Assembly: GCA_016207825.1 (NCBI GenBank)
Contig: JACQZI010000014.1
Span: 1-64,000 of the forward strand
Length of the DNA: 64,000 bases
Direction: 5' to 3'
DNA from: Planctomycetota bacterium
GTDB taxonomy: Bacteria; Planctomycetota; MHYJ01; JACQXL01; JACQZI01
Shown here: piece by piece, positions 2,446 to 53,082 of the stretch
Layout of the letters: the number at the start of each line of letters is the position of its first letter
Numbering within the stretch: position 1 is the stretch's first letter
Notes under the pieces: model-generated
Told to the model about the DNA's origin: nothing
Database searches by the model: none
What the model saw: the letters and a program-made list of their open reading frames with translations, nothing else
Program-made: the position numbers and the translations under genes

Positions 2446-4275
2446 ATGAATAAAAGCATGACCAAATGGGTTACCGTTTTTTGGTCATTGCTCCTTGTGA
2501 TGTGCACCATGATTATGGCCAATCCAGCTTACGCGGACAGCTGGTCTGAAGTTACTTTTACTAACGGGACATTTGTCAACACTGTTACAACAACAAATGC
2601 GGCCGAAACGGTATTGAACAAAGGCAATTACAATTGGGTCAGGATATTTTGTGCCGCAACCCCCACCGCACGTGCCGGGCATGTAATTGCTTATGATTCT
2701 GCTAGGCAAAAAGTAGTCCTTTTTGCCGGATATACCAACAATTATAATAACGAAACATGGGAATATGATGGAATAAACTGGAGCCAAAAATCGCCCGCCA
2801 CCATCCCTGTTGCCCGGTATTTACACGCTATGGCATACGACCCAACGCTTCAGGTAACCGTTCTTTTTGGCGGACAGGATAATACAGGTGCCAACCTTTA
2901 TGACTGTTATGAATGGGATGGAAATAATTGGGTATCAAAAACAGGTCTTACTTCTTCATACCAAAGGCATCATCTCTCACTTGCTTATGATATTGCACAA
3001 AGTAAGCTTGTTATGTTCGGCGGATACTATAATTTTTCCAGAAACTGGACTCACGAGCGTAATTCAAGCAGAACATGGTCTCTTCCAAGCCAAACCACAA
3101 TTCCGGGCAGCCGTGAAGGTTACGGTTTATCATACAGTTCAAACAATAAAGTAGTTATGTTCGGCGGTTATAATGATAATGGGACTACCATTACTTACTT
3201 ACAGGATACATGGGAACACACCAGTGGTGCGTCTCAAACCTGGACCAATAAGAATCCGGCAAATAAGCCAAGCGCGCGCGTTGACCTTTGCATGGTTTAT
3301 GATTCTGACCGCCAGAAAGTAGTTCTTTTAGGAGGAGAGGATGAAACTTATACCACAAAAAATGATACCTGGGAATGGAACGGGACAAACTGGTCTCAAC
3401 TTACACCTGCGACCAACCCTCCGACTCGGATGAGGCATAGTATGGCATATGATTCCGTTCGCAAAAGAATTGTATTATTTGGAGGGGAAACGAGTCAGTC
3501 CGGCAGTAAACTTAATGATACTTGGGAATACTTTACCCCATATTTAGCGTCAGGTAATTATACATCAATTGCTATTCAACCAAGTGAGGTTTCTTACTGG
3601 GGAATTTTGACATATACGATTGCTTCTTCCACGAATACTACCGTAACCATAGATGTTTTGAAATCATCTGATGACTCTCTTTTAGCTGTTAATATCCAGC
3701 CGGGAACCGACCTTTCATCCGCTTATCCAGCCATATTTAACGGAATTACAGGAATCAAACTCAGGGCAAATTTTTCCACATCAAATCCTTCTCAAACCCC
3801 GACCTTATACGAATGGGGAGTAACTTATTATAAGGGTCCCGTAGTCACTACCACAAACTGGGTTGATTTAGTTAACGGCAATGCCGTCAAGATGGGCCAA
3901 TCTGTTGCCTATGTCAAGTTTGACATGAAAACTAACTCCGGCATAGCTAAATGGAAACGATTCAGGATTGATAAAGGAGTAAAAACATATTCTAATATCG
4001 CTTGCCCGGATAATAAAATAGAAATTCAAGTCTGGATGGAAAATAATAACAATGGGTTATGGGATATAGGAGATGCATTTATCAGCAAAGGCATCTTCGG
4101 CAACGGCATCTGCTGGCTTAACATGAAACGATGGCAGGTAACAACCACATCCCGGACATATTATATTGTATATAAGTTATCAGGAGATATCGGCGGTGGG
4201 CAGCGGGCGGGAGTAAAGATAGTGGATTCAAGCTATTTAGAGTTTGAAGACGCAACTTGCATCGGAGTCCCATAG
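2446..4275 (+). CDS. Secreted Kelch-repeat beta-propeller protein
   Basis: A 609-residue exported protein. Residues 1-31 are a signal peptide ending NPAYA. Residues about 60-365 contain at least five Kelch/galactose-oxidase-type repeats, each with a pattern such as MAYDSVRKRIVLFGG followed by DTWEY or NTWEW, so a beta-propeller is expected. After a beta-rich linker, residues about 465-609 carry the same C-terminal module as its two neighbours, here complete to LEFEDATCIGVP. The start is fixed by AAGGAGAG six bases upstream. Kelch propellers mediate binding or carry oxidase activity; no catalytic residues for an oxidase could be confirmed. It is probably expressed with its neighbours as an extracellular or cell-surface set. 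Confidence 0.85.
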   Translation: MNKSMTKWVTVFWSLLLVMCTMIMANPAYADSWSEVTFTNGTFVNTVTTTNAAETVLNKGNYNWVRIFCAATPTARAGHVIAYDSARQKVVLFAGYTNNYNNETWEYDGINWSQKSPATIPVARYLHAMAYDPTLQVTVLFGGQDNTGANLYDCYEWDGNNWVSKTGLTSSYQRHHLSLAYDIAQSKLVMFGGYYNFSRNWTHERNSSRTWSLPSQTTIPGSREGYGLSYSSNNKVVMFGGYNDNGTTITYLQDTWEHTSGASQTWTNKNPANKPSARVDLCMVYDSDRQKVVLLGGEDETYTTKNDTWEWNGTNWSQLTPATNPPTRMRHSMAYDSVRKRIVLFGGETSQSGSKLNDTWEYFTPYLASGNYTSIAIQPSEVSYWGILTYTIASSTNTTVTIDVLKSSDDSLLAVNIQPGTDLSSAYPAIFNGITGIKLRANFSTSNPSQTPTLYEWGVTYYKGPVVTTTNWVDLVNGNAVKMGQSVAYVKFDMKTNSGIAKWKRFRIDKGVKTYSNIACPDNKIEIQVWMENNNNGLWDIGDAFISKGIFGNGICWLNMKRWQVTTTSRTYYIVYKLSGDIGGGQRAGVKIVDSSYLEFEDATCIGVP

Positions 4276-4409
4276 ATGGGTAACCCATCCCCACTCTGCA
4301 TACCCCTTAATAAGGGGTAAATAAGGGGGGGGCAGCGAGGTAGATATAATTTAGGAGGATGTCCTTTTAACCCGAATAATGCAATATAAAATGAGAGGAG
4401 AAATGTTTT

Positions 4410-4820
4410 ATGCCAAAAAGAGCGGATTGGATACCAACCCATAGCGACGATTTCTTCAACAAACAAAGGGCTTATTTAGACTTGGTCATAGCCAATAAAG
4501 TCGTTTGGGGCATACTGGATACGGCCATTAATCCCCTGCTTGCTCTCCAGGCTAAGTACGAGCCGTTATACTGGAAGTTTCGGAATAAAAAGAGCCGGAC
4601 CGGAGGCGACGTCGCGGCCCATCGCGATTGCCGCAACCGTTATCAAACTTCATGGCGCGCTTTCCACAATGAATGGGTCATCGCGAATCCCCGTGTTTCT
4701 AAGCAAGACTTGGTCATTCTGGTCGGCCCGGAACGTGACACCAAACCTAACCCGAATCCGGTTGATTATGAATATCCCGGTTGTGGTTTTAAGGGCAATC
4801 GGTGTGCCGCCGTAAGGTAA
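4410..4820 (+). CDS. Conserved hypothetical protein with MPKRADWIP N-terminus
   Basis: A 136-residue protein with no signal peptide or membrane segment. The N-terminus (MPKRADWIPTHSDDFF) and the later segments WRAFHNEWVIANPRVS and DTKPNPNPV resemble a family of small conserved proteins from various bacteria that I know only as hypothetical. Relatives, as I remember them, continue past the DTKP-type motif. Here the protein ends soon after it in an unrelated-looking cysteine-containing tail, so the 3' end may be truncated or frameshifted. A good AGAGGAG site lies about ten bases before the ATG. It sits between two secreted-protein genes. Function unknown. Confidence 0.65.
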   Translation: MPKRADWIPTHSDDFFNKQRAYLDLVIANKVVWGILDTAINPLLALQAKYEPLYWKFRNKKSRTGGDVAAHRDCRNRYQTSWRAFHNEWVIANPRVSKQDLVILVGPERDTKPNPNPVDYEYPGCGFKGNRCAAVR

Positions 4821-40416: not shown

Positions 40417-40519
40417 ATGTAAGAGTAGAATCGGGAATTGAGTAAGATTCATCCTGCCGCCTTTAGCGAGCCTCGCCTATGGCGGGAGCGGAGTCGAAGG
40501 GGTGTCACCGGAATTAAGA

Positions 40520-42457
40520 ATGAATTCATCATTTCATACAATCTGTATAGGTGAAGATATACAATCATATGATAGTTTGGTTAAGGAAACTTCCGCTGAG
40601 TTTCAAAAACGTAATGTGCTTCTTTTTACCGGTGCTGGCATTTCCACAGGAGAACCTTCGTCTCTTCCACTAGCAGTTGAACTTATTAAACCATTGGTTT
40701 CAGAATTTAAGAAAGCAACTCAATTATTTCCCGAATTAAATAAAATCGACTCAAAAGATAAAAATCTGGCGTTCGCCACGCTTGAAGAAGCCAGATTGGA
40801 ACGTCTTCTTGACGCACTCTACCGTGTTTATAAAGAACCGGCTTTAGATTACATTTCTGTTCTAAATGGCGACGAATGCAATACCAATCATAATGCAATT
40901 GCCGCATTGGCAAAAAATAATTTCCTACCCGTTTGCATAACCCTTAATTTTGATTTGCTAATTGAAAAAGCAGTGGGGTCTTGTGAAATTGAATGTCCAT
41001 TATCGACCCCCTCAAAAATTCCTTTTGGCACATCGAACCCTATTCTTAGAGTAATAAAACCGCATGGCACTTTTACTGAAGGCGATGACCCATATAAATA
41101 TCTTGCGGCAACATTGTCGGATATCGGTTCCGAACCGGCATATAATACCATTAGGGTAATTTCGGATGCAATCGATAAATCCAGTGTCTTGCTGGTAGCC
41201 GGTTATAGCGATGATGATTGGGATATTTTCCCTATTCTCGTAAAAAAAACTAGTTCTGCTAAGAGACTAAAGAAAATAATATGGGTTCAATATATCAGTC
41301 CTAAAACTATTGAACGACGAAAAGCAGGACTAGATGAAATTTCAGAGAGAGTTTATAATTGGCTTAGTAATTCAAATATAGAAGCTGTTATTCTTATTGG
41401 AGACATTAGGCAATTTCTTATTGATACACTTGAATCTTTATCTATTACGATATCACAGCCTAAGGGTGGAGTGAAAAAACACCCAGATATCGCACCATTC
41501 AAAGCCGATAATGATCCGAATAATGCTCAATCAATAAAAACCGCATTAGCACTGGCTTATATTATTCATCAAACAGGAGAATATAGTGAAAAACTTCTTT
41601 GGTTGTTGCATAATAACTCAATAATAAAAAACACACCTCATTTATTATGGCAGGTTGAAGATTTGCTTGGGCATATGTACCATACTTATGGCAAGTTAGA
41701 GAGAGCTATTCGTCATACAAAACAAACTATATCAGCCAAACAACACCCAGAAGTTGAATTATCTGTTGCTAAAGATATTGTTTGGCTTGGGTATGAATAT
41801 TTATGCCTTTCGAAAAGGCCCAATCCGCTCCGACCGCTTCGACTTATTAAAATCCCATATTGTATTTTCAAGGGTATGTATTTACTTAAGAAAGGAATTT
41901 CCTTAGCCAAAACAAATGAAGAAAGGAAAAGCCTTAAGGGACTGGCCGCATATTATCGAGTGGATCTATTGCATAGCTGGGGAAATATTTTAATGCTTTT
42001 TGGGTGTTATACCGTACGTATTTTTGCTTTTTATTTCCGTTGGATTGAATCGTTATATAGCGATATCGATAAGAATTTTGATGTAATGAAAACGGCCTAC
42101 TATTGGTTGCGTCATTTAGAGACAAAATTGCTTGGTAGAAAATTTATTGATAAAAAAGAGCTTAAAGAAATAAAGGATAGGCTTGATGAATTACAAATTC
42201 AGAACGACTTAGTGCAAAACAATCCTCAATCCGGGAATACGCGTGCTTATCGAGCTTTGCTTTATTATCTGATTGATCATAATATGGGTAAGGCTAAAGA
42301 GGAAATAAACGGGTCTGACAAAGAATGGAGAAAAAAGTGTAAAGGAATAGCATCTGGTTGGAGACGCACTGTGCTTTTTAAACGATTTATTGGTTTGAAA
42401 AAACCGACTTTTCTTGATGCATTATGGTTGTTCCTAAAAGAAGCTGATGCTACCTGA
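40520..42457 (+). CDS. SIR2-like domain protein with helical C-terminal region
   Basis: A 645-residue protein. Residues about 30-310 form a SIR2-type NAD-binding domain: LLFTGAGISTGEPSS, TLNFDLLIEKA and VIKPHGTF (catalytic-type histidine), then VLLVAGYSDDDWDI. The remaining 330 residues are alpha-helical with TPR-like pieces (MYHTYGKLERAIRHTKQTI). SIR2 domains joined to helical sensors are frequent in antiphage NADases, and the neighbourhood (methyltransferase, GHKL ATPase) fits that; activity against phage is inference. Codon use is AT-rich compared with the flanking genes. The ATG at 40520 is preferred to a GTG six codons upstream. Confidence 0.82.
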   Translation: MNSSFHTICIGEDIQSYDSLVKETSAEFQKRNVLLFTGAGISTGEPSSLPLAVELIKPLVSEFKKATQLFPELNKIDSKDKNLAFATLEEARLERLLDALYRVYKEPALDYISVLNGDECNTNHNAIAALAKNNFLPVCITLNFDLLIEKAVGSCEIECPLSTPSKIPFGTSNPILRVIKPHGTFTEGDDPYKYLAATLSDIGSEPAYNTIRVISDAIDKSSVLLVAGYSDDDWDIFPILVKKTSSAKRLKKIIWVQYISPKTIERRKAGLDEISERVYNWLSNSNIEAVILIGDIRQFLIDTLESLSITISQPKGGVKKHPDIAPFKADNDPNNAQSIKTALALAYIIHQTGEYSEKLLWLLHNNSIIKNTPHLLWQVEDLLGHMYHTYGKLERAIRHTKQTISAKQHPEVELSVAKDIVWLGYEYLCLSKRPNPLRPLRLIKIPYCIFKGMYLLKKGISLAKTNEERKSLKGLAAYYRVDLLHSWGNILMLFGCYTVRIFAFYFRWIESLYSDIDKNFDVMKTAYYWLRHLETKLLGRKFIDKKELKEIKDRLDELQIQNDLVQNNPQSGNTRAYRALLYYLIDHNMGKAKEEINGSDKEWRKKCKGIASGWRRTVLFKRFIGLKKPTFLDALWLFLKEADAT

Positions 42458-42751
42458 ATGTTGATAGTCACCACGCTTTGGAGCACACTTTTCCAAAAAC
42501 AGCCTTGTTCTCTTGAAACAGGCACCTATCCCTGAAATCCTTGATTTTCTCTATCCACAAAGCTCTTTTTCTCAATTCCGGAGCGAAGCGACTTCCCCGC
42601 GGAACATAGTGACGTCCCTTTAGGGAAAGCGTAGCCAGGTGGGATTAATCAATCAACTAATTAACTAATATTATTGCCAAACTTCCCTTCGAATAGTAAA
42701 ATTCTTGGTAATTAAGTAAAACGTCCCCCAAAAGCACGGAATTATAACGAA
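42458..42751. other. Intergenic region within the accessory island
   Basis: No gene is seen. The region carries the second copy of the TTGCCA promoter-like element (42674-42702). Confidence 0.5.
42674..42702 (+). promoter_or_regulatory. Promoter-like element upstream of the 42752 gene
   Basis: TTGCCA at 42674-42679 and TAAAAT at 42697-42702 (spacer 17). The match with 40292-40320 starts two bases before TTGCCA and continues through AACTTCCC. Confidence 0.55.
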
Positions 42752-43330
42752 ATGTCTAACAAATTAAAGAATTTAGCCAGGATTGTTGAGTGGTATAAGA
42801 AGAGAGCTCGTTTCAATCCTGACGATTATTCTAACGGTTCACTTGAAGAACGTATTAGAAAGATTTATACATTTCCCCACCAGCGGAGGGTTAAAAAATC
42901 AGTTAAAGACAGAGTAAAGAAAAAGCTATTGCGCAATGCAAAAGCAATCAATAAATGTAAAGACTTTAATTCTCTTTATAACATAGTTGAGGAAAACAGT
43001 GTAAAGGGGTTTGGGGACTTATCTATTTACGATACCACTATGATGATTGGCTTCCGCAAAGGAATCCTTCCTGATAAAGTCTACTTACATCGTGGGACGC
43101 GTAGGGGGGCGGAAATATTACTAGGAAGGCAGCTAAGTAAAACTTCCTGTCTTTTAACAGATGAATTAGATATCTTATTACGGAAACTAAAACCATACCA
43201 AATAGAAGACCTTTTGTGTATCTGTAAAGACGATTTTAAACTCAGGAAAGTTACAAGCGCTATATTGAACAAACGCCACGGCGAAAGAACATGTGTTGTA
43301 AAAAAGAAAACTAAGCGAAACTCTTGCTAA
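42752..43330 (+). CDS. Small HhH-like protein of unknown function
   Basis: A 192-residue basic protein. The central part, VKGFGDLSIYDTTMMIGFRK then GILPDKVYLHRGTRRGAEIL, resembles a helix-hairpin-helix-like family I know only as hypothetical; LKPYQIEDLLCICKDDF is its usual C-terminal motif. The N-terminal 80 residues and the last 20 are rich in Lys and Arg, so nucleic acid binding is plausible. It lies between the SIR2 gene and the GHKL operon and has its own promoter-like element. A direct role in a defence system is only a guess from position. Confidence 0.65.
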   Translation: MSNKLKNLARIVEWYKKRARFNPDDYSNGSLEERIRKIYTFPHQRRVKKSVKDRVKKKLLRNAKAINKCKDFNSLYNIVEENSVKGFGDLSIYDTTMMIGFRKGILPDKVYLHRGTRRGAEILLGRQLSKTSCLLTDELDILLRKLKPYQIEDLLCICKDDFKLRKVTSAILNKRHGERTCVVKKKTKRNSC

Positions 43331-43407
43331 AAACATAAAATCAAAGTAGAATTTAGGCGTTGATGAAAATCCGAGATTTGTTAGAATAACCGATTTAAAA
43401 TACGCAT

Positions 43408-45687
43408 ATGGAGAAATTTAAGTTTACAGTTGATAGTGCTTTGCTCAGTGAATTGGGGGAAAAATTAGTCGAATTTCCTCACATTGCTTTGGTTGAATTA
43501 GTTAAAAATGCTTATGACGCCGATGCAACACGGGTAGATATAAAGTTTATTGAGCAAAAAACAGGTGCCCCAGAAATCCATATTATCGATAATGGACATG
43601 GCATGACATTAGATGATGTTAAAAATTATTGGATGAGGATTGCCACAACAAATAAAATCAAGAATAATTATTCTCCATTATATGGTCGTCCTAAGACAGG
43701 AGAGAAAGGTATTGGACGATTTGCTTGTCGACGGTTAGGATTGCATTTAAAGCTTATTACAATTGCAAAATCAACTGGGAATAACTATGAAAGGACAGAG
43801 GTTGAATTTCTGTGGGACCATTTTAAAGCCGGGAAAGAAGTTACAGAGATAGAATGCCCGGGGAAAAATGAAAAAATAAAAGATGCGCAAACAGGAACCA
43901 CTTTAATTATCAGTAAGGGGCAAAAAAATGAGTGGCAAAAAAGAGGTTATGACTTTGCAAAAAGACAATTCTGTTTGCTTGCTATTAATAGAGGCGAAAA
44001 AAGGAAAGGGTTTGCAGAAGACCCAGGCTTTAATATTTTTATGACTTTTCCACAAATGGAAGGTACAACAGAAGCGATTGATATGCGTCAACAAGTTATT
44101 TCAGGTGGTTGGGGGGTGCTTAAAGGACATGTTGATAGTAAAGGTAACGCAACTTATACCCTAGATGCATTAGATATTGGGGAAAGAACTTTTAAGAGCT
44201 CTGAGGAATACACAAACCTAAAAGACGTCACAATGGAAATAGGAATAATTCCCGGTAGTAGAAAAGACCAATATAAAGACCCAAAACTATTAAAAGAAGA
44301 ATACAAAAATTCAAATTTGCTAAAAGATTGGGTAGTTAAAAACTTCTTAGATGATTGGGGTGGTGTTCAGGTTCGTTTCAAAGGATTTAGGGTTTATCCC
44401 TATGGAGATGATGATTGGCTGGATATTGATAGGGATAGAGCACTAAGCAAAGGAGCGTCAGAATCCAAGGAGCTTGAAAAGGTTGTATACACCTTCAATA
44501 ATGTAGTACTTCCTAGCCGTTATTTACTTAGTTTGCTTTCGATGCGTAGTTATGTTGGTTCGGTTAATATTGGTGAAGGTGCGACCGGATTTGAGATGAA
44601 AGCCAGCCGAGAAAAATTTGTAGATTCAAAAGCAACTGAAGAATTAAAGAATTTCGTACGGTATGGTATTGATTGGGCAACTATTCTCAGGGATTATTAC
44701 AAAAGATTAAAAGAAACGAGTAGTTCAGAAAAAGCTGCTGAAAAACTAGGTGAAGTAATCGGCAAAAAAGTAGGCCCGGAAAAAGTTGTTGAGGCCGCTA
44801 CCGCCTATCTAAAACAACAAGTTGATAGCATATCCAATCTATTACCAAAGAATAAGAGAGAAGAATTAGAAAAATCCATTCCAGCGATAACGAATTCTAT
44901 TTTAAAATATGACAAATTGAAAACTGGTGAATTACATCACTTAAGATTAGTGGCCTCAACTTCTACACTGCTAAATATTTTTGCTCATGATGTAAAATTA
45001 TTCACTGGTTCATTAAGTTCCAGTCGCGTAAAATTAAAAGATCTCGAAGATAGAGTTTCTGCCAAGGACAAAGAATTCATTAAAGAAATACGTAATGGTT
45101 TAAATGATTCTAAAAAAAGATTTAATGATCTTTTAGAAATGACAGCTCTTATTGGCACGGAAAATATATCCACACCGCCTCAGCAATTAGCACTGTTTGA
45201 TAGAATCGAATCAGCCGAAAGATGCTTTAAACCAATATTAGATGAATATCATATTAAAATTAATTATGATCAAGTCCCCAAAAATTTATTGGTCGGTCCA
45301 ATGTTGGAAGGGGAATTATATGCGATTCTTCTTAATACTCTTTCTAATTCAATTAAGGCTGTGATAGCTGAGGGACAAAACAAAATAATTGAAATTGCGG
45401 CTACAATGGTCGAGAAAAAAGCTAAACTAAATATTCGTGACAGTGGAATTGGATTAGATGAAAATCATTTTGATGATGTTTTTATTCCTTTTATTGCTGA
45501 TCCTACAAATAAGCTATACAAGGAATTAGAGAAAAAAATTAATCCCAGGGATAAATATATTGTGGGGATGGGAAGTGGTTTAGGATTAAGTATCGTTAAA
45601 GATATCGTAAAATTACGTAAGGGGGAAATCAGATTTGTGAAACCAACAGGTAACTGGAAAACCGATTTGGAGGTTATTTTACCATGA
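43408..45687 (+). CDS. Double GHKL protein: MutL/MORC-like ATPase plus histidine-kinase-like ATPase
   Basis: A 759-residue cytoplasmic protein with two ATP-binding Bergerat folds. The N-terminal one has the N box ALVELVKNAYDADATRV, G1 IIDNGHGMT and G2 GEKGIGRFACRRLG, as in MutL, Hsp90 and MORC ATPases. The C-terminal one (about residues 635-759) has NTLSNSIKAV, RDSGIGL and GMGSGLGLSIVKDIVKLR, as in histidine kinases. Between them HLRLVASTSTLLNIFAHDVK (about residues 512-531) resembles a dimerisation/phosphoacceptor helix. The stop overlaps the receiver gene by four bases (ATGA), so phosphotransfer to it is plausible. TAAAAT ends six bases before the ATG. Confidence 0.85.
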   Translation: MEKFKFTVDSALLSELGEKLVEFPHIALVELVKNAYDADATRVDIKFIEQKTGAPEIHIIDNGHGMTLDDVKNYWMRIATTNKIKNNYSPLYGRPKTGEKGIGRFACRRLGLHLKLITIAKSTGNNYERTEVEFLWDHFKAGKEVTEIECPGKNEKIKDAQTGTTLIISKGQKNEWQKRGYDFAKRQFCLLAINRGEKRKGFAEDPGFNIFMTFPQMEGTTEAIDMRQQVISGGWGVLKGHVDSKGNATYTLDALDIGERTFKSSEEYTNLKDVTMEIGIIPGSRKDQYKDPKLLKEEYKNSNLLKDWVVKNFLDDWGGVQVRFKGFRVYPYGDDDWLDIDRDRALSKGASESKELEKVVYTFNNVVLPSRYLLSLLSMRSYVGSVNIGEGATGFEMKASREKFVDSKATEELKNFVRYGIDWATILRDYYKRLKETSSSEKAAEKLGEVIGKKVGPEKVVEAATAYLKQQVDSISNLLPKNKREELEKSIPAITNSILKYDKLKTGELHHLRLVASTSTLLNIFAHDVKLFTGSLSSSRVKLKDLEDRVSAKDKEFIKEIRNGLNDSKKRFNDLLEMTALIGTENISTPPQQLALFDRIESAERCFKPILDEYHIKINYDQVPKNLLVGPMLEGELYAILLNTLSNSIKAVIAEGQNKIIEIAATMVEKKAKLNIRDSGIGLDENHFDDVFIPFIADPTNKLYKELEKKINPRDKYIVGMGSGLGLSIVKDIVKLRKGEIRFVKPTGNWKTDLEVILP

Positions 45688-46196
45688 AGAAAAAAATGAT
45701 ATTTTTATGGATAGAAGACAATCAAAAACGTCAAGCTGATTATGCAAGGACTTTGGAAAATAAATCTTTTAGAGGTATCCCAAAGGCCGAAATTGATTTT
45801 AAATTAGTTAGAGGGATGGATATAAAAGAAGTATTAGATGGAATAACCAAAGCATATAGAAGAATACCCCCCAATCTTATTATTATAGACCATTTTTTGG
45901 ATAATATTAAAGGCGGTTTTATAGAAGACAACAAGACTAATGGTACCTCTATAGCTTTGCTTCTAAGAGAAAAAGGATTAAATTGCCCCATTGTTGGAAT
46001 AACAACCGCTGCAAATATACGCAGGATCCCTATTTCTAATAATACTAAAGATATATATGATGATTTTATAGATGCCGATGACTTTGAGGAATATTTCGAG
46101 GATATTTTTGTTCTGGCAAATGCATTTAGAGTTTCGAAAAAAGTCCCCTCCGATAAGTCTAGGTTTTTAGGCTTATTAAAAACCCAAAACAATTAA
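45684..46196 (+). CDS. Receiver-domain (response regulator-like) protein
   Basis: A 170-residue protein with an atypical receiver domain. The acidic pocket is IFLWIEDNQ (residues 6-14), the presumed phosphoacceptor aspartate is in NLIIIDHFLDN (about 62-72) and the threonine switch is in CPIVGITTAA (about 103-112). An extra acidic loop follows. It starts within the stop of the GHKL gene. The end is suspect: a minus-one shift near the run of five A residues at 46178-46182 continues into another long open frame, so the natural protein probably has a further 170 residues. Confidence 0.8.
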   Translation: MKKKMIFLWIEDNQKRQADYARTLENKSFRGIPKAEIDFKLVRGMDIKEVLDGITKAYRRIPPNLIIIDHFLDNIKGGFIEDNKTNGTSIALLLREKGLNCPIVGITTAANIRRIPISNNTKDIYDDFIDADDFEEYFEDIFVLANAFRVSKKVPSDKSRFLGLLKTQNN

Positions 46197-46699
46197 GAGA
46201 ACAATTAATACAAGTACTGCCTACTGATTTAAGTTCAAGCTGGCTATCAACTCTATACAAATGGGTCAGAAATAGTTTTTTTGGTAAACCAGGATTCCTA
46301 TATAATAAATTGTGGGCTGCAACCTATCTCGGTTTAAATGAAAAAGGTTTTGAGAAAGTAGAAAATATTTTTAAGGATGCAAAATATGAAGGGATCTTTG
46401 CAAACACGTCAAAACCTCGTTGGTGGCCAATGAAAATCAAGGATTTATTGTATCAAAAGATTCACGAAAAGCATAGCGGTCTAACATGGGAACTTGGGCA
46501 TTTTTTAACCCCGCCAATCACTAAGAATGATTTTTCTAAATGTTATGTTTGTGAAAAAGATTATCCAGAAATCGTGGGATATACAGATGAATCATTAAAA
46601 AAACAATATCCCATGCATATTAGATGCTCAGAACCGATTGTTAATCTCGAAAAAGATATGTTCTTTGAAGAGAAACGAAAGCAAAAAAGGAAAAAATGA
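46163..46699 (+). pseudogene. Zinc-binding C-terminal extension of the receiver protein, in the minus-one frame
   Basis: This frame is open from 46163, but no ATG, GTG or TTG occurs before 46310. The region before that is clearly coding (QLREQLIQVLPTDLSSSWLS and WVRNSFFGKPGFLYNKLWAA). It ends in a putative zinc site, CYVC and HIRC about 21 residues apart. Without a start codon ahead of the coding part, it is best read as the C-terminal half of the receiver protein, separated by an indel or joined by ribosomal frameshifting. Its stop overlaps the next start (ATGA at 46696), which suggests it is translated. A short product from the TTG at 46310 (129 residues) is the alternative. Confidence 0.65.
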
Positions 46700-47409
46700 G
46701 CATAAATACCACATTTCCTACGCCGGTTAAATTAATCCAAGAAGAAATAAAAACACTGAAGTTCTTGATGAATCAAACAAGAATATCACAGTTTTGTGGC
46801 GATGCCGGAAGGGCATACAGTGTATACAATAAATACCCTCAATTGATCCGAAAAAATCAACTAAAAAACTTTAACTTTTATTTTAATACATTTTTCGATG
46901 TTCCTTGCGCTGATATTGGTTTAACTCTACGAATATTTGTAAATGCAGATGTTAAAATACAAAATAACAGTTATGAAAAAGTGTGTTATCATTTAATAGT
47001 TACGAAAAAAGCCAGAAGGAGCCAGGAAGAACTACGTTACACATTATTTAGAAATTTTCATTTTGACTATAATCCTAAAGCTAATGAAAGTGGACATCCA
47101 TTTTTTCATTTACAGTACGGAGGAGGAACGGGTCGCTCGTTCGGGGCCGAATATGCAATTAACATCACTTTTCCAAGTATAGATTTGCCTCGTATCTCTT
47201 ATAAGCCCATGTCATTAGCATTATTAATGCAAATAGTTTTTATGCATTTTTATGATGAAAATGTTGTAAAACTACGTGAAGACAATGATTGGAAAAGCAT
47301 TCTATGGAATAATGAACAGCTATGCTGGAAAGACTACTATGCTGAATGTTCTGCTTATTTAAATTCAGAGGAAAAACATATACTTTGTAATCATTTCTGC
47401 GGGAAATAA
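46696..47409 (+). CDS. Unknown protein, last gene of the GHKL-receiver operon
   Basis: A 237-residue protein I do not recognise. It is soluble and mixed alpha/beta. A conserved-looking motif FHFDYNP....GHPFFHLQYGGG (about residues 131-155) contains histidines that could bind metal or act in catalysis. The C-terminus holds several cysteines (LCWKDYYAEC, ILCNHFC). The ATG overlaps the preceding stop by four bases, so it belongs to the operon. It may be the effector of the system; this is inference only. Confidence 0.75.
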   Translation: MSINTTFPTPVKLIQEEIKTLKFLMNQTRISQFCGDAGRAYSVYNKYPQLIRKNQLKNFNFYFNTFFDVPCADIGLTLRIFVNADVKIQNNSYEKVCYHLIVTKKARRSQEELRYTLFRNFHFDYNPKANESGHPFFHLQYGGGTGRSFGAEYAINITFPSIDLPRISYKPMSLALLMQIVFMHFYDENVVKLREDNDWKSILWNNEQLCWKDYYAECSAYLNSEEKHILCNHFCGK

Positions 47410-47430
47410 ACTTACTTTAACTAAAACTGC

Positions 47431-48747
47431 TTAGTATTTATAATAACCATTCCAAAGCGGTAATTCTTTCAATGCAGTAACTGTAAGATGTCGACACCTT
47501 ATTCTTTTATCTAACCATTTTGTGGTTTTATCGCATTTTAGACTGTTAGTTAACTTCTTACACTCACTAAGTAATTTATTATATGGAGTCAGTACTATTA
47601 AATGATTCTCAGCCGCAACCTTCTTTTTACCGGCAATTATTGTTGATATAATGCGCTTTTTTTCGTCCGGTCTAGATGTTCTGCGAATAACAACAAATGG
47701 AGGAGAGAAAAGTTTTCCGGAGAATTTACGATAGTTTTTAAATCTTTTAACAATTCCGTCTTTAGGTAATTCGCGAGCAAAAATATATCTGCATTTTAAA
47801 CCCTTTTTAATGTCTCTATGTGGGACAACAGCTCCGACATTAACATCAAATAAATCCTTAACCCGTTTTTTAGATTTAATTCTCGGCAAAGCCCAAAAAC
47901 CTTTTCTTTTATTTCCTTTATCTTTCTTCACAGTTAAATGCAATATAAAGACATCAATATCGGTCAATTTATCGAATTGCCCCACAACTTCTATCTTAGT
48001 TATTTTTGCCAGCGAAGAAATTAGTTTTCTCCATTTTTCATATCGTGAGCCAGTCCTTAAAACATCTGGTAATATTGCAGAAATATGACTTCCTGAAGGG
48101 TTAGAAGTGAGACATTTTTCAATAAAAACCGCTGCAGTTGAAACCTTTCCGCATGCCCAAGTACATCCATTTGGTGCCTTCATCATTGTAAAGGGAGGAT
48201 TAATTAAGATATGCTTCTTTTCTTTGGGTTCATTAGTTATTGAAAGAAAATTACCAGTTTGAATAAAAGGAAATGTATTAGATAACAAACAAGGATTTTC
48301 TTTATTTACAGGAAGCCCGCGCAAAATTGCCAATAATGCAAGTCGAATCTTTGTTAGATGGACAAGTTCAGGGTAAATATCATAGCCTCTAATCTGTTTC
48401 CCCCAATTTGTTAAAGTAGTTTTAAGGTCGTTGCCCAAGGGTAATCTTGCCGCATATGCTACAAGTAAATCTCCGGCACCGCATGCGGGGTCAAGTATCG
48501 TCAATTTATTAGAATAATTATTGAAAGGGATTTTACATGTTTGTTTTGCTAGTTCCTTACCGGTAAAAAATATGCCTGATGATTTTTGAGTATTTAAATT
48601 AACTAAACGACGTAACTCTCTACTGGGTTCCCCATTTAGAGCGGCAAAAACTTGTTTGTTATGTGTTTTATTTAGATTACGAAAGGAATCAAGAAGTAAT
48701 GTTTCTGTGTTTCTAACATAACTTTTAAATTGATTAAGGTGATTCAT
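47431..48747 (-). CDS. N6-adenine DNA methyltransferase
   Basis: A 438-residue methyltransferase. Motif I (SAM binding) is LTILDPACGAGDLLVAYAAR (about residues 65-84) and motif IV is ILINPPFTM (about 182-190). KSSGIFFTGKELAKQ before motif I is typical of the N6_Mtase group (type I HsdM, type IIG, BREX PglX). The C-terminal 200 residues are probably the target recognition part. No restriction or specificity subunit is recognised nearby. It converges with the GHKL-receiver operon, 21 bases apart. The ATG at 48747 or a GTG at 48768 may be used. Confidence 0.85.
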   Translation of the reverse strand: MNHLNQFKSYVRNTETLLLDSFRNLNKTHNKQVFAALNGEPSRELRRLVNLNTQKSSGIFFTGKELAKQTCKIPFNNYSNKLTILDPACGAGDLLVAYAARLPLGNDLKTTLTNWGKQIRGYDIYPELVHLTKIRLALLAILRGLPVNKENPCLLSNTFPFIQTGNFLSITNEPKEKKHILINPPFTMMKAPNGCTWACGKVSTAAVFIEKCLTSNPSGSHISAILPDVLRTGSRYEKWRKLISSLAKITKIEVVGQFDKLTDIDVFILHLTVKKDKGNKRKGFWALPRIKSKKRVKDLFDVNVGAVVPHRDIKKGLKCRYIFARELPKDGIVKRFKNYRKFSGKLFSPPFVVIRRTSRPDEKKRIISTIIAGKKKVAAENHLIVLTPYNKLLSECKKLTNSLKCDKTTKWLDKRIRCRHLTVTALKELPLWNGYYKY

Positions 48748-48806
48748 AACAGACCGCCTGACAAACACATGGTCTTTCTAAGAATAAGGAATAAATGTTT
48801 ATCGGA

Positions 48807-48896: not shown

Positions 48897-48989
48897 ACGT
48901 ACTAATTTCCGTTTAATTCGTTGCTTGAATTTCCCCGTCTTCTACTTCCCGTTTTTCCGCAAAGGTAGTATCAATACGCCAAAGAGGTA

Positions 48990-49319
48990 GTACTCCACTC
49001 GTCTAGGGCTAATACTCCATTCGTCTAGTGTCAGTATAGCATTCGTCAAGGGGCGGTATACGATTCGTATATAACCGGTACTGCATTCGTCTAGTGTCAG
49101 TAGACCATTCGTCAAGGGTTAGTAGACGATTCGTCAAGGGTCGGTACAACATTCGTATATGACCGGTACCCGATTCGTCAAGGGTTGGTACACGATTCGT
49201 CTAGGGTCACTATAGCATTCGTATATGACCGGTACCCGATTCGTCAAGGACCGGTACGGCATTCGTCTAGGGCCGGTATTCGATTCGTATATAACCGGTA
49301 CACCATTCGTTTAGGGGGT
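48990..49319. repeat. Array of fifteen contiguous 22-bp repeats
   Basis: The core ATTCGT (ACTCGT in the first) starts at 48997, 49019, 49041, 49063, 49085, 49107, 49129, 49151, 49173, 49195, 49217, 49239, 49261, 49283 and 49305: exactly 22 bp each time with no indel. Each unit reads GTA, three variable bases, C or G, ATTCGT, then one of two endings. Eleven units have a C(A/T)AGGG-like ending; units 4, 8, 11 and 14 have ATATRACCG. A degenerate sixteenth unit may lie at 48968-48989. It is not coding (22 is not a multiple of 3) and not a CRISPR (no spacers). Confidence 0.95.
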
Positions 49320-49330
49320 GAGATACCGAT

Positions 49331-49681
49331 TCAGGCGTGATATATATAAACCAGAGGGGGGGAGTAGATACCCCCTCCATCCCGCCTTGCGACTAGAGGA
49401 AGGGCGGGATTCCGGGGACTGTAGCCCCCTCCGTCCCTTGAGGGACTTCGGGGACGCCAAATCAATTGTATTATAGCAGGGACAGCCCCCTCTCTATTCC
49501 TTCGGGGACTATAGACAGCAGTCATCCCGTGAGGGATAGCCCCCTATGCTATCCCCCATAATTTTTAAAATGTAAAATTTCTTTATAATTTTGTAAACTA
49601 TTTTTACACTAATTTGGCTAAAAAACAAGCTATAAAGGCAAACAGTCGGATAAAAACGTTTTAAACGGCCTTTCGGGCGGG
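49331..49681. other. Intergenic region with C/G-rich palindromes, then an AT-rich stretch
   Basis: 49350-49560 is rich in short GGGGGCT/CCCCCT-type inverted pieces like those at 16.9, 18.5 and 50.4 kb. 49555-49640 is AT-rich. No gene is seen; short minus-strand frames here have no coding character. Confidence 0.5.
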
Positions 49682-49698
49682 TTGGCATGGAAATTGCT
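49682..49698 (+). promoter_or_regulatory. Sigma-54 (RpoN) type promoter
   Basis: TTGGCATGGAAATTGCT matches the -24/-12 consensus, with GG and GC separated by exactly ten bases. It points towards the gene at 49858. Confidence 0.65.
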
Positions 49699-49722
49699 AT
49701 ATAAGTAGTATGCAGTGCCACC

Positions 49723-49802
49723 TTTACGGCTAATAGGCCGTAAAATGGAAAGTACCCGTATCCCGTACGGCGAGAATGGGAATTGCCCCGGCATTCGCCG
49801 GG
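49723..49802 (+). promoter_or_regulatory. Structured 5' leader with two hairpins
   Basis: TTTACGGC-taatag-GCCGTAAA (49723-49744) and CCCGGC-attc-GCCGGG (49787-49802) are perfect inverted repeats between the sigma-54 promoter and the ribosome site AGAAGGTG at 49841. Confidence 0.5.
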
Positions 49803-49857
49803 ACGCCCGATTGATACTACGTCGAATGGGCGGGACGGAAAGAAGGTGATTTTACGT

Positions 49858-50383
49858 ATGGTGTACGCACCGCTTTTATGACTCTAACGACTACGATGGG
49901 GACGACGAATACTCCTATCAGGACGAACTTGATAACAAGTTCTTCCACGGGAAACCTTCAAACCAAAAACACCGCTTTACATTAAAAGACATCGTATTTT
50001 TAATCGCCCGCCTTTCCAACCCTCGTGATGATAAACTGCCCCTTATCCAGGATTATTACATAATAGATTGCAAAGGAAGCACCCTTTGCCGAAAATACCG
50101 CATAAGGCGCAAACGACTCGCCGGATTCCTTAGAAAAGTAAAACGGGAGTATAACTGGCTGGTCCACCGCCATGAAGGCGAATTAATCCCCTTTTCCTTT
50201 AAGGAAATCATCTGCCTGGTCGGGCGCATCACCATTTCGTTATCCCCATGTGAAATACGCTGGTCTCAGGGTTATTATGATACGGACGGCGACTGGCGAA
50301 AGACCTGCGAGAAGTGCAGCATACCCAAAACCACCCTTTTCCGCTTTTTAAGGTGTAAAATACGCCAGGCATTCCTTAATTAG
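49858..50383 (+). pseudogene. Frameshifted gene for a 174-residue basic protein
   Basis: AGAAGGTG (49841-49848) precedes ATG 49858, which opens MVYAPL and then hits TGA. The frame one base further on is open for about 500 bases, from just after TGA at 49847-49849 to TAG at 50381-50383, and reads YDSNDYDGDDEYSYQDEL, then FTLKDIVFLIARLSNP and TLFRFLRCKIRQAFLN. Removing one T from the run at 49873-49876 joins the two. The product is basic, with CEKC near the end beside a helix-turn-helix-like segment. Function unknown. It is either recently inactivated or affected by an indel error. Confidence 0.65.
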
Positions 50384-50745: not shown

Positions 50746-51141
50746 ATAAGAAAAATTGAAGCCATCCCGTTAGAACGGGACGTCACTGACGTTCCGAAAC
50801 ACCCTGATGAACTGACCACCTTTGAGTTCATCAACAGGCACCTTTACCAGAGGGCGCTAAAAGGCGCTTACCGGAATGAATTAGAGCTGGTTAAGGAACG
50901 GCTATCGCCTTCGCTGGATTCGTTCAAGGACGCGGAGGAGTTTATGAAGGCAATGCGGAAAGATCATGACCTTAAGGAAAAAACCGTCCGGGAACTGAAA
51001 CAACTCTGGAAAAAGGACTATGACCTCAGGCCCGCGACAGGCGTAATCCTGATGCTGGCATTGTGGATTAATGCCCCAGCTGCCAGTGAGAATTACTGGT
51101 ATAAATTGTTTGTCGGGCTGGAAGAAGGAGGTGAAGCATGA
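50746..51141 (+). CDS. Unknown 131-residue protein with an ATA start codon
   Basis: The frame is open from 50722 to the stop at 51139-51141, but the first ATG is at 50944. The part before that is convincingly coding (HPDELTTFEFINRHLYQRAL, ELELVKERLSPSLDSF), and AAGGAGGG ends eight bases before ATA at 50746. ATA, a rare start, would give a protein beginning M-R-K-I-E-A-I-P. A product from 50944 (65 residues) is possible but lacks its own site. The protein is helical and charged, with no recognised domain. Its stop overlaps the protease start (ATGA). Codons 50766-50833 include three palindromes. Confidence 0.6.
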   Translation: MRKIEAIPLERDVTDVPKHPDELTTFEFINRHLYQRALKGAYRNELELVKERLSPSLDSFKDAEEFMKAMRKDHDLKEKTVRELKQLWKKDYDLRPATGVILMLALWINAPAASENYWYKLFVGLEEGGEA

Positions 51142-51969
51142 AACGCGTAATGTTTATAATAATCTTAGGGATTTTGGGAATCGGGCTGACAGCATGGGCG
51201 ACTAAGCCGCCCGAACTCCCGCCGGATGTGATAATCATCCGCCCCTTATCTACTAAGGACAACCCATATCAATGGGAATATGATGAAATGCTTAGCCCGA
51301 CAGTAAGAATCACAACTGCCAATGGAATAGGGTCTGGCGTTGTGATTCAGAGTTCAATAGTTTCAAAGTTTAATAGTTCAAAAGAAACTCTTGAACAGTT
51401 GAACAATTCAACGGTTGAACTTTACGTTTTGACTGCTGCTCATGTGGTTGGGAATTACGCCAAGGTAGATGTGACATTCTACGATTATAGCCACGAAGGC
51501 ACTAAGACACTAAGCGCTTCTGTAGTTATTACGGATACGCTTAAAGATTTGGCATAGCTTAGTCTGAAAGCTGACAACTATAATCTAAAAACTGCTGCGT
51601 TAGCAGATAGGGATTATCAATATTATCTGTTTGCCCCTGTTTATGTCGTTGGTTGCTCGTTAGGTTTATCTCCAAGACCGTCTTCAGGAATCATCTCGGC
51701 TATTAACTTTGATTCGGTGGAAGTTTCCGCGCCTATCTTACCCGGTAATTCCGGTGGTCCGGTTTACACGGCAGATACGCACGAGTTAATCGGTATCGCA
51801 GTATGGGTTCGGTTATGCGGTAATCAACTTGTTACTACCATGGCGGGTATCGTGCCCATCTCGGAAATATACGATTTCCTGGATTCAGCCACCAAGACTC
51901 TAAGACACCAAGAAAAACTTAGTGACTTTGTGCCTTCGTGGCAAATAAACCACAGGAAGGAGTTAGACT

Positions 51970-52062
51970 ATGCTGAAAGTAATGTCGAGTTTCTGGCTGG
52001 GTGTGGTCAGGGCGGTTATCAAAATCGTTTTGGCTCTCATCCGGAAGAAAATAGAAAAATAA
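51970..52062 (+). CDS. Small 30-residue amphipathic/membrane peptide
   Basis: AAGGAG at 51957-51962 lies seven bases before this ATG. The product, MLKVMSSFWLGVVRAVIKIV then LALIRKKIEK, is one hydrophobic helix with a basic end. It overlaps the 3' part of the protease frame in another frame and could be the true next cistron. The small size makes coding potential uncertain; the ribosome site is the main support. Confidence 0.45.
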   Translation: MLKVMSSFWLGVVRAVIKIVLALIRKKIEK

Positions 52063-52229
52063 TCGCCACTCATAGGCAGTTACAGGCGTTAAGGGGTACT
52101 GTGAACTCTTTGGCGCAACTGCGTATAGAGAGCGTTAAAAATATAGCCACGCCCCTTACCTGTTGGAAGGGACTCCCTATTATTCGGGTGTCCCTGAAGT
52201 GCAACGGAGCGGGGGAAAAGCACAGAAGT

Positions 52230-52250
52230 CCCCCGATGTCATCTCGGGGG
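52230..52250. repeat. Hairpin before the 52285 gene
   Basis: CCCCCGA-tgtcatc-TCGGGGG, 7-bp perfect arms, located between the protease and the unknown 265-residue protein. Confidence 0.5.
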
Positions 52251-52284
52251 GCTCTGTGTCTCTGTGGCAAAAGGAGAATGTAAG

Positions 52285-53082
52285 ATGAGTATCACAAGAA
52301 TATGGATAAAACTGGCTATCAACCCGCTGACACAGGCAGTGCCTAAAATGGCAGAGCTCTGGTCAGAGGGCTTGACCGGTAACGCGGATAAGCTGATTGA
52401 ACGCCTTAAGGCGGTCATCCCTGACGAAATGTCCTATCTTTCCAAGATGGCGGAACCTGCCGAGCAGGCATACCAGAATGTGCTTGACCCGGCTTTTGTC
52501 AGCCGGAGAGGCAAGAACAAGTCCAAAATAAATGCCAGCCAGGCATATAAAATCAAACGGGCATGGGCAAAATACCTGCGGAACCTGGACCATGCGTTTG
52601 AGACCGTTGACGGCGTCACCGCCAAGCGGTTCAAGGATAATGTTATTGCCGCCAAGGAAGATTATGCCGAAAGGTTGAGCGAAAGCACGCTTGCCCTGAC
52701 AGGCATTAAGGCCCTGGAATCCGGTCCCGCAAGGATTGCGGTTTATTGGCTGTCCGGCGACTCCAAAGCCAAAGGGATGATGAGGGCGGCAGACCTCTAC
52801 ATGGCGCCGAGCGAACCCTTTAACGTCACCACGGCGGAAAAGAAGAATTCGCTCCGGGTGCTTTTGATTTCCCGGCTCATACAGGGCGGTATATCAATCA
52901 TCCAGGGTGGAATGGGCATGCCCCTAATAACGGAAGTCAATACCCTCTTGAACTCGCTGGTTCAGGGGATGGTTGACCCGGCATTGGGGCTGGAAAGCTT
53001 TGCTCCGGGCGGTGCTTCTCACTTGGACTTCGTCAAGGATAACGGACAGTTGTTTTTGTCTGTTAAGGTTTCTCAGGTATGA
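52285..53082 (+). CDS. Unknown 265-residue protein of a family also found as a fragment at 18.2 kb
   Basis: A soluble, mostly helical protein with basic character (RRGKNKSKINASQAYKIKRA) and a Gly-rich hydrophobic segment (LIQGGISIIQGGMGMPLITE). No family is recognised. The last 27 residues match the minus-strand fragment at 18214-18315 in 21 positions, so the family occurs more than once in this chromosome. AAAGGAGAA lies about eight bases before the ATG at 52285; a longer start at 52264 is less likely. It is the last gene of the cassette behind the sigma-54 promoter. Confidence 0.75.
   Translation: MSITRIWIKLAINPLTQAVPKMAELWSEGLTGNADKLIERLKAVIPDEMSYLSKMAEPAEQAYQNVLDPAFVSRRGKNKSKINASQAYKIKRAWAKYLRNLDHAFETVDGVTAKRFKDNVIAAKEDYAERLSESTLALTGIKALESGPARIAVYWLSGDSKAKGMMRAADLYMAPSEPFNVTTAEKKNSLRVLLISRLIQGGISIIQGGMGMPLITEVNTLLNSLVQGMVDPALGLESFAPGGASHLDFVKDNGQLFLSVKVSQV

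Follow-up and report, generated by a model that had tools for sequence, protein, structure and literature searches.

A gene for a tandem helix-turn-helix (HTH) protein is probably controlled by sigma-54, and its synthesis probably requires programmed +1 ribosomal frameshifting; we give this reading a probability of about 80%. The gene was studied in a window of 64,000 nucleotides (the whole stretch of DNA that was analysed). When the window's own genome was searched at the protein level, four paralogues turned up on other contigs (C7, C12, C2 and C23). The features at and around the start of the gene are the following.

49840 to 49849, plus strand: Shine-Dalgarno sequence AAGAAGGTGA, read from the sequence.
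49858 to 49881, plus strand: zero-frame ORF, MVYAPLL and then UGA (ATG GTG TAC GCA CCG CTT TTA TGA).
49870 to 49882, plus strand: invariant putative frameshift site CCG CUU UUA UGA C, with five genomic occurrences that form an invariant run.
49880 to 50383, plus strand: main (+1) frame of 167 aa (174 aa counted from ATG 49858), encoding a predicted tandem HTH protein.
49921 to 49946, plus strand: intragenic hairpin that starts 39 nt beyond the stop codon, from the five-copy alignment.

The ribosome-binding site and ATG 49858 are both present where the first-pass annotation had placed them. The zero frame that opens at this ATG is closed by UGA 49879-49881 after 7 codons, and 174 aa are obtained if one T is skipped. 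The 174-residue protein that had been predicted from a corrected frame was recovered as the +1 frame at 49880-50383. The T run that was to be shortened exists as well, but at 49874-49877, one base off from the 49873-49876 first given. The gene is a real one that ORF calling based on start codons overlooks, and homologues of it exist. In the window, the main frame contains zero ATG, GTG or TTG in 167 codons, which has a P of about 3e-4 when independence and the codon usage of the window are assumed. Since 3% of overlapping 167-codon stretches in ordinary genes likewise lack all three, the absence of start codons is supporting and not decisive. The first main-frame start codon in the C7 and C12 paralogues is at codon 147. 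In C12 and C23 a +1-frame stop lies six codons before the shift, so that no upstream start can serve these two copies. A change of genetic code that reassigns UGA was not supported: the genes of the window and the prfB shift site use UGA as an ordinary stop, and the zero frame reaches a TAA shortly after the UGA.

A search with the corrected protein returned homologues, and the set analysed here comprised seven sequences: the window copy, the four paralogues (33-39% identical to the window protein) and two divergent homologues in G007, a second genus from another family of the same order. Among 392 genomes of the phylum, homologues were found only in the window's own genome (G000) and in G007, and scans of the genome_contigs and viral_contigs collections with the regulator alignment gave no match. 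An ATG that opens a run of seven sense codons, followed by a stop, is common to 7/7 homologues. A single ancestral event may lie behind the five own-genome copies, and the two copies in G007, with near-identical 5' ends, are probably one data point. In the five own-genome copies the start consists of ATG, six codons and UGA, with the protein in +1. The 2.9-Mb genome contains the 13-mer CCGCTTTTATGAC exactly five times, each time at the frame break of these genes. When the five copies are aligned, no invariant run is longer than its 13 columns (the next has 9), and an invariant run of that length was reached in 0 of 20000 column shuffles. The start in G007 is AAGGAGGTGTTCTGT-ATG-TGG-TCG-CGC-CAC-CGA-CGC-TAA, and the protein is again in +1. 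These copies have a good Shine-Dalgarno sequence, a UAA stop and a site sequence different from that of the own-genome copies, and the stop context is UAA U, as compared with UGA C in the five own-genome copies. The homologues have a Shine-Dalgarno-like stretch ahead of their equivalent ATG, and it is weak in C7.

The dN/dS of the closest pair indicates that the family is under purifying selection. For C7 and C12 (80% protein identity), dN was 0.146 and dS 1.36, which gives a dN/dS of ~0.11; divergence is greater in the other pairs, and for several of them dS was saturated or had no defined value. All seven copies retain 167-180 open codons at 23-80% pairwise identity. In most pairs, third codon positions vary most within the first 38 codons past the stop, as is expected if translation enters at the shift. 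Invariant residues start right at the shift (RFYD, then Q..D..F.G.P..QK). Conservation of the site and coding selection downstream of it, by which programmed frameshifting in general is recognized, have both been found at this gene.

The frame break in all seven copies looks like deliberate control and not like a sequencing error. The advice of the first-pass annotation to check the T run in raw reads implies a possible error or private indel, and this was rejected. A run of four T does lie at the site and could be misread or vary in phase. Such a run is short, however, and the identical 13-nt site stands at five paralogous loci on five contigs of one genome, with an analogous arrangement in a second genus. 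Phase variation is further opposed by the G007 site, which has no such T run. We regard an error or a phase-variable homopolymer as extremely improbable. It is also very unlikely that the break is the signature of a decayed gene in a broken family spread by duplication. The window operon does have a stop codon (TAG) in its protease gene and ATA for the start codon of the next gene, which would suit decay, but the open codons held by all seven copies and the low dN/dS of C7 and C12 would not. The two genera share the codon position of the break, and 0/7 copies have regained the frame.

Two further explanations accept the protein and alter how ribosomes reach its frame. In all five own-genome copies an ACG stands in the +1 frame five codons before the shared GAC, and the main frame might be read from such a non-canonical start just upstream of the site with no frameshift. 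This is unlikely: the Shine-Dalgarno sequence is spaced for the ATG and stands far upstream of the ACG, the G007 copies carry ACC at the position, and the ATG and the early stop are kept in all seven homologues. The product could also be made by a -2 slip of the UUA tRNA onto UUU, on which UUA can re-pair, or by termination and re-start at an overlapping AUG, as present in both genera (AUGA in the window, UAAUG in G007). We give either route a very small chance, as nothing at the G007 site corresponds to the -2 slip, and the overlapping AUG is in the third frame, from which the conserved protein would not result.

Programmed +1 frameshifting is the preferred reading, and the following course of events is proposed. 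RpoN polymerase would transcribe the operon, with an enhancer-binding protein probably acting at TGTAAA-N5-TTTACA. Ribosomes would initiate at ATG 49858, translate seven codons and reach the early stop, which would be read by release factor 2 (RF2; UGA in the window genome, UAA in G007). Most ribosomes are expected to terminate at this stop, and some would slip +1 at CUU-UUA-UGA-C and produce the ~174-aa protein. Like the gate of prfB, the frameshift would couple the yield of protein to how efficiently ribosomes terminate. Autoregulation of the operon by its HTH protein is probable and might involve the neighbouring 22-bp array. From the sequences we infer that frameshifting happens, which codon slips, that release factor is sensed and what the target is. 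The slip may take CUU to UUU with UUA in the A site, it may occur at UUA-UGA, or a -2 event may be involved; at the G007 site no P-site slip with good re-pairing is obvious. Two candidate elements were rejected. UUA is not rare in this genome (16.7 per 1000 codons) and was dismissed as a starvation-sensing rare codon. The hairpin within the coding sequence has 94% of cells paired in the five copies and two compensated pairs (a small sample), and as a frameshift stimulator it is probably too far past the stop for the classical role.

The best reading of the comparison with prfB is that the frameshift is prfB-like in logic and different in codon context and stimulator. In published prfB sites, CUU stands directly before the stop and a Shine-Dalgarno-like stimulator lies three bases further upstream (PMC12421855, PMC5009743). 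The frameshift pattern YTT_TRA_C has also been described (PMC3711429). In this genome, prfB (L067, around 773-890) has the canonical CTTTGAC frameshift preceded by GGGAG, and its leader hairpin resembles that of the window gene. The gene studied here shares with prfB a short zero-frame ORF, a stop readable by RF2 and a +1 protein beginning with GAC (PMC5009743, PMC12421855). The shift would likewise be obligatory, as 7/7 homologues need it and the main frame of the window copy is without start codons. Unlike in prfB, the stop is preceded by UUA (five copies) or CGC (G007), and CUU is found one codon further upstream. By inspection, no internal Shine-Dalgarno-like stimulator (AGGGGG in prfB) was present between the ATG and the site in any copy. 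The stop is at codon 8 as opposed to about codon 26, the product is a putative regulator, and the stop in G007 is UAA. Of prfB-type sites, the weak stop context UGA C is seen in the five own-genome copies, and UAA U takes its place in G007. The tail-shaft frameshift of Listeria phage PSA is likewise a +1 shift adjoining a stop codon (PMC5009743), whereas the PSA frameshifts use a proline codon site and belong to structural phage genes, unlike the case here.

Upstream of the gene, the following features were assigned.

49571 to 49608, plus strand: putative activator-binding region, conserved in the C7 and C23 operons.
49654 to 49669, plus strand: conserved AAAACGTTTTAAACGG block between the inverted repeat and the promoter, identical in three operons.
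49682 to 49698, plus strand: predicted sigma-54 (-24/-12) promoter TTGGCATGGAAATTGCT, based on consensus fit, conservation and the rpoN-type genes and activators of the genome.
49723 to 49744, plus strand: leader hairpin 1 (TTTACGGC/GCCGTAAA), a perfect stem.
49787 to 49832, plus strand: leader hairpins 2 and 3, in part a repeat-like element.

The RpoN-type promoter proposed by the first-pass annotation is well supported. TGGCAN6TTGCW has one match in the window as against 0.23 expected, which alone is mildly unusual. The promoter lies within a block of ~135 bp that is conserved in the window, C7 and C23 operons, and the promoters of the two paralogous operons read ATGGCACGATATTTGCT (C7) and TTGGCACGATATTTGCT (C23). 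Across the loci that were read, TTGGCACGATATTTGCT comes back in near-consensus form, and promoters almost identical to it stand at other loci of this genome. The C12 and C2 copies have other upstream sequences and no such promoter, which is thus found in 3/5 operons. When the genome was checked for rpoN and for enhancer-binding-protein genes, both were found, with two rpoN-type genes and 24 strong full-length matches to the sigma-54 activator domain. The putative activator-binding region contains TGTAAA at 49571-49576 and the inverted repeat TGTAAA-N5-TTTACA at 49592-49608, which precedes the -24 element by about 80 bp. The -24/-12 consensus, the spacing and the upstream inverted repeat are the same as in RpoN promoters served by enhancer-binding proteins, and nothing is unusual in this respect. 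The window's sigma-54 promoter also has an exact 23-nt match ahead of an unrelated gene in another family within the order (L003, G003).

The leader was described as structured, with two perfect hairpins, and these are present. Hairpin 1 is kept with one G-U pair in C7, hairpin 2 (49787-49802) is perfect, and a third stem lies at 49804-49832. The significance of the structure is weak: the C23 operon does not keep the hairpins, and a portion of the leader is similar to an element that is also found before prfB, elsewhere, and in a genome of the same genus. Rfam gave sub-gathering matches only.

The product of the +1 frame is predicted to have a disordered acidic N-terminus followed by two HTH-like helical units (AlphaFold model from the seven-sequence alignment, mean pLDDT 76). 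The window regulator could not be assigned with confidence to any family in Pfam, PHROGs, NCBIfam or PADLOC, and a fold search of the PDB with the model returned nothing at E <= 0.001. For the C7 paralogue only, there were weak matches to homeodomain-like HTH and sigma-70 region-4 profiles, below curated cut-offs. The likeness to such proteins consists of these profile matches and the helical, tandem-HTH-like model; against it, the window protein has no match and there is no confident fold match. Assignment as an ECF/sigma-70 factor, which calls for regions 2 and 4 over the cut-off, was rejected, and no sigma region 2 was found. Three other operons have, at the equivalent place, single-HTH relatives whose N-terminus is similarly acidic. 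Because these are in frame from their ATG, the frameshift marks the double-HTH subfamily.

The gene is followed by three others and preceded by a repeat array.

48968 to 49332, no strand assigned: degenerate tandem array with an exact 22-bp period and the constant core ATTCGT, from unit recurrence analysis.
50746 to 51141, plus strand: second operon gene, ~130 aa, assigned by eye.
51138 to 52283, plus strand: trypsin-like (S1) protease gene, interrupted by TAG 51555-51557; Pfam Trypsin_2 was matched by the intact C7 copy.
52285 to 53082, plus strand: gene of the ~270-aa family, a family of unknown function that is expanded in the order.

The regulator gene heads the operon, and behind it stand the genes for the ~130-aa protein, the trypsin-like protease (order variable) and the ~270-aa protein. 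The window operon may be partly decayed: the TAG in its protease gene is in-frame where other copies have Leu, and 50746-50748 read ATA after AGGAGGG, a good Shine-Dalgarno sequence, where the C7 copy has ATG. The protease was considered as an HtrA/DegP protein and this was rejected; the C7 copy has a trypsin domain over the cut-off but no PDZ match. Some copies (L016 1583-3640, L100, L121, L129) encode the protease and the 270-aa protein as a fusion within a single reading frame. Genes for SIR2-like, GHKL-ATPase and methyltransferase proteins, resembling a defence island, flank the window copy (40502-48768) and the C23 copy (L016 5633-9064).

The 270-aa family is massively expanded in this genome, with 50 matches, some of them fragmentary. 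It also occurs in five more genomes of the order, and the rest of the 392 phylum genomes gave no match. No family in Pfam, PHROGs, NCBIfam or PADLOC could be assigned confidently to the 270-aa protein, and its structure model has a mean pLDDT of 42. In related genomes, the gene is often followed by one for a fibre-like protein with repeats such as TSDKIADKAVT (L055, L101-L105, L143-L155). Degenerate arrays with a 22-bp period were found at about half of the 270-aa-gene loci examined, almost always upstream. They comprise 8-21 units, and the unit sequences differ (L014, L016, L055, L056, L101, L141, L142, L154 and others). Control loci of about 134 kb contained one 22-bp array only, which itself adjoins a 270-aa gene. 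The unit of the window array recurs only at C22:42202-42361. This array (L017, around 4000-4440) carries the window's ATTCGT unit with no 270-aa gene nearby, and it is possibly a second target of the window's HTH protein. A putative link between HTH proteins and 22-bp arrays is attractive. The suggestion of one inducible cassette stands in part. This type of array and the downstream genes recur together at other loci; on the other side, the window copy looks partly decayed and two of the five copies are without the sigma-54 promoter.

More speculatively, and with a good deal of doubt, the loci could be multicopy, self-regulating cassettes in one Planctomycetota order. Each would combine its own 22-bp array, a diversified HTH protein that reads this array and is conserved in an N-terminal segment, and a termination-sensing gate based on a novel kind of +1 shift, and together they would act as parallel orthogonal switches for protease, 270-aa and fibre-like surface modules. 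Gene finders that demand an in-frame start codon miss or mis-start the first gene of this recurring operon. In the publications consulted, the known +1 frameshifts in chromosomal genes of bacteria are dominated by prfB. If real, the frameshift described here, conserved among regulators and different from prfB in codon context and in having no prfB-type stimulator, would provide a second natural system in which to study why ribosomes slip at early stop codons and whether termination efficiency serves cells as a signal for other genes.
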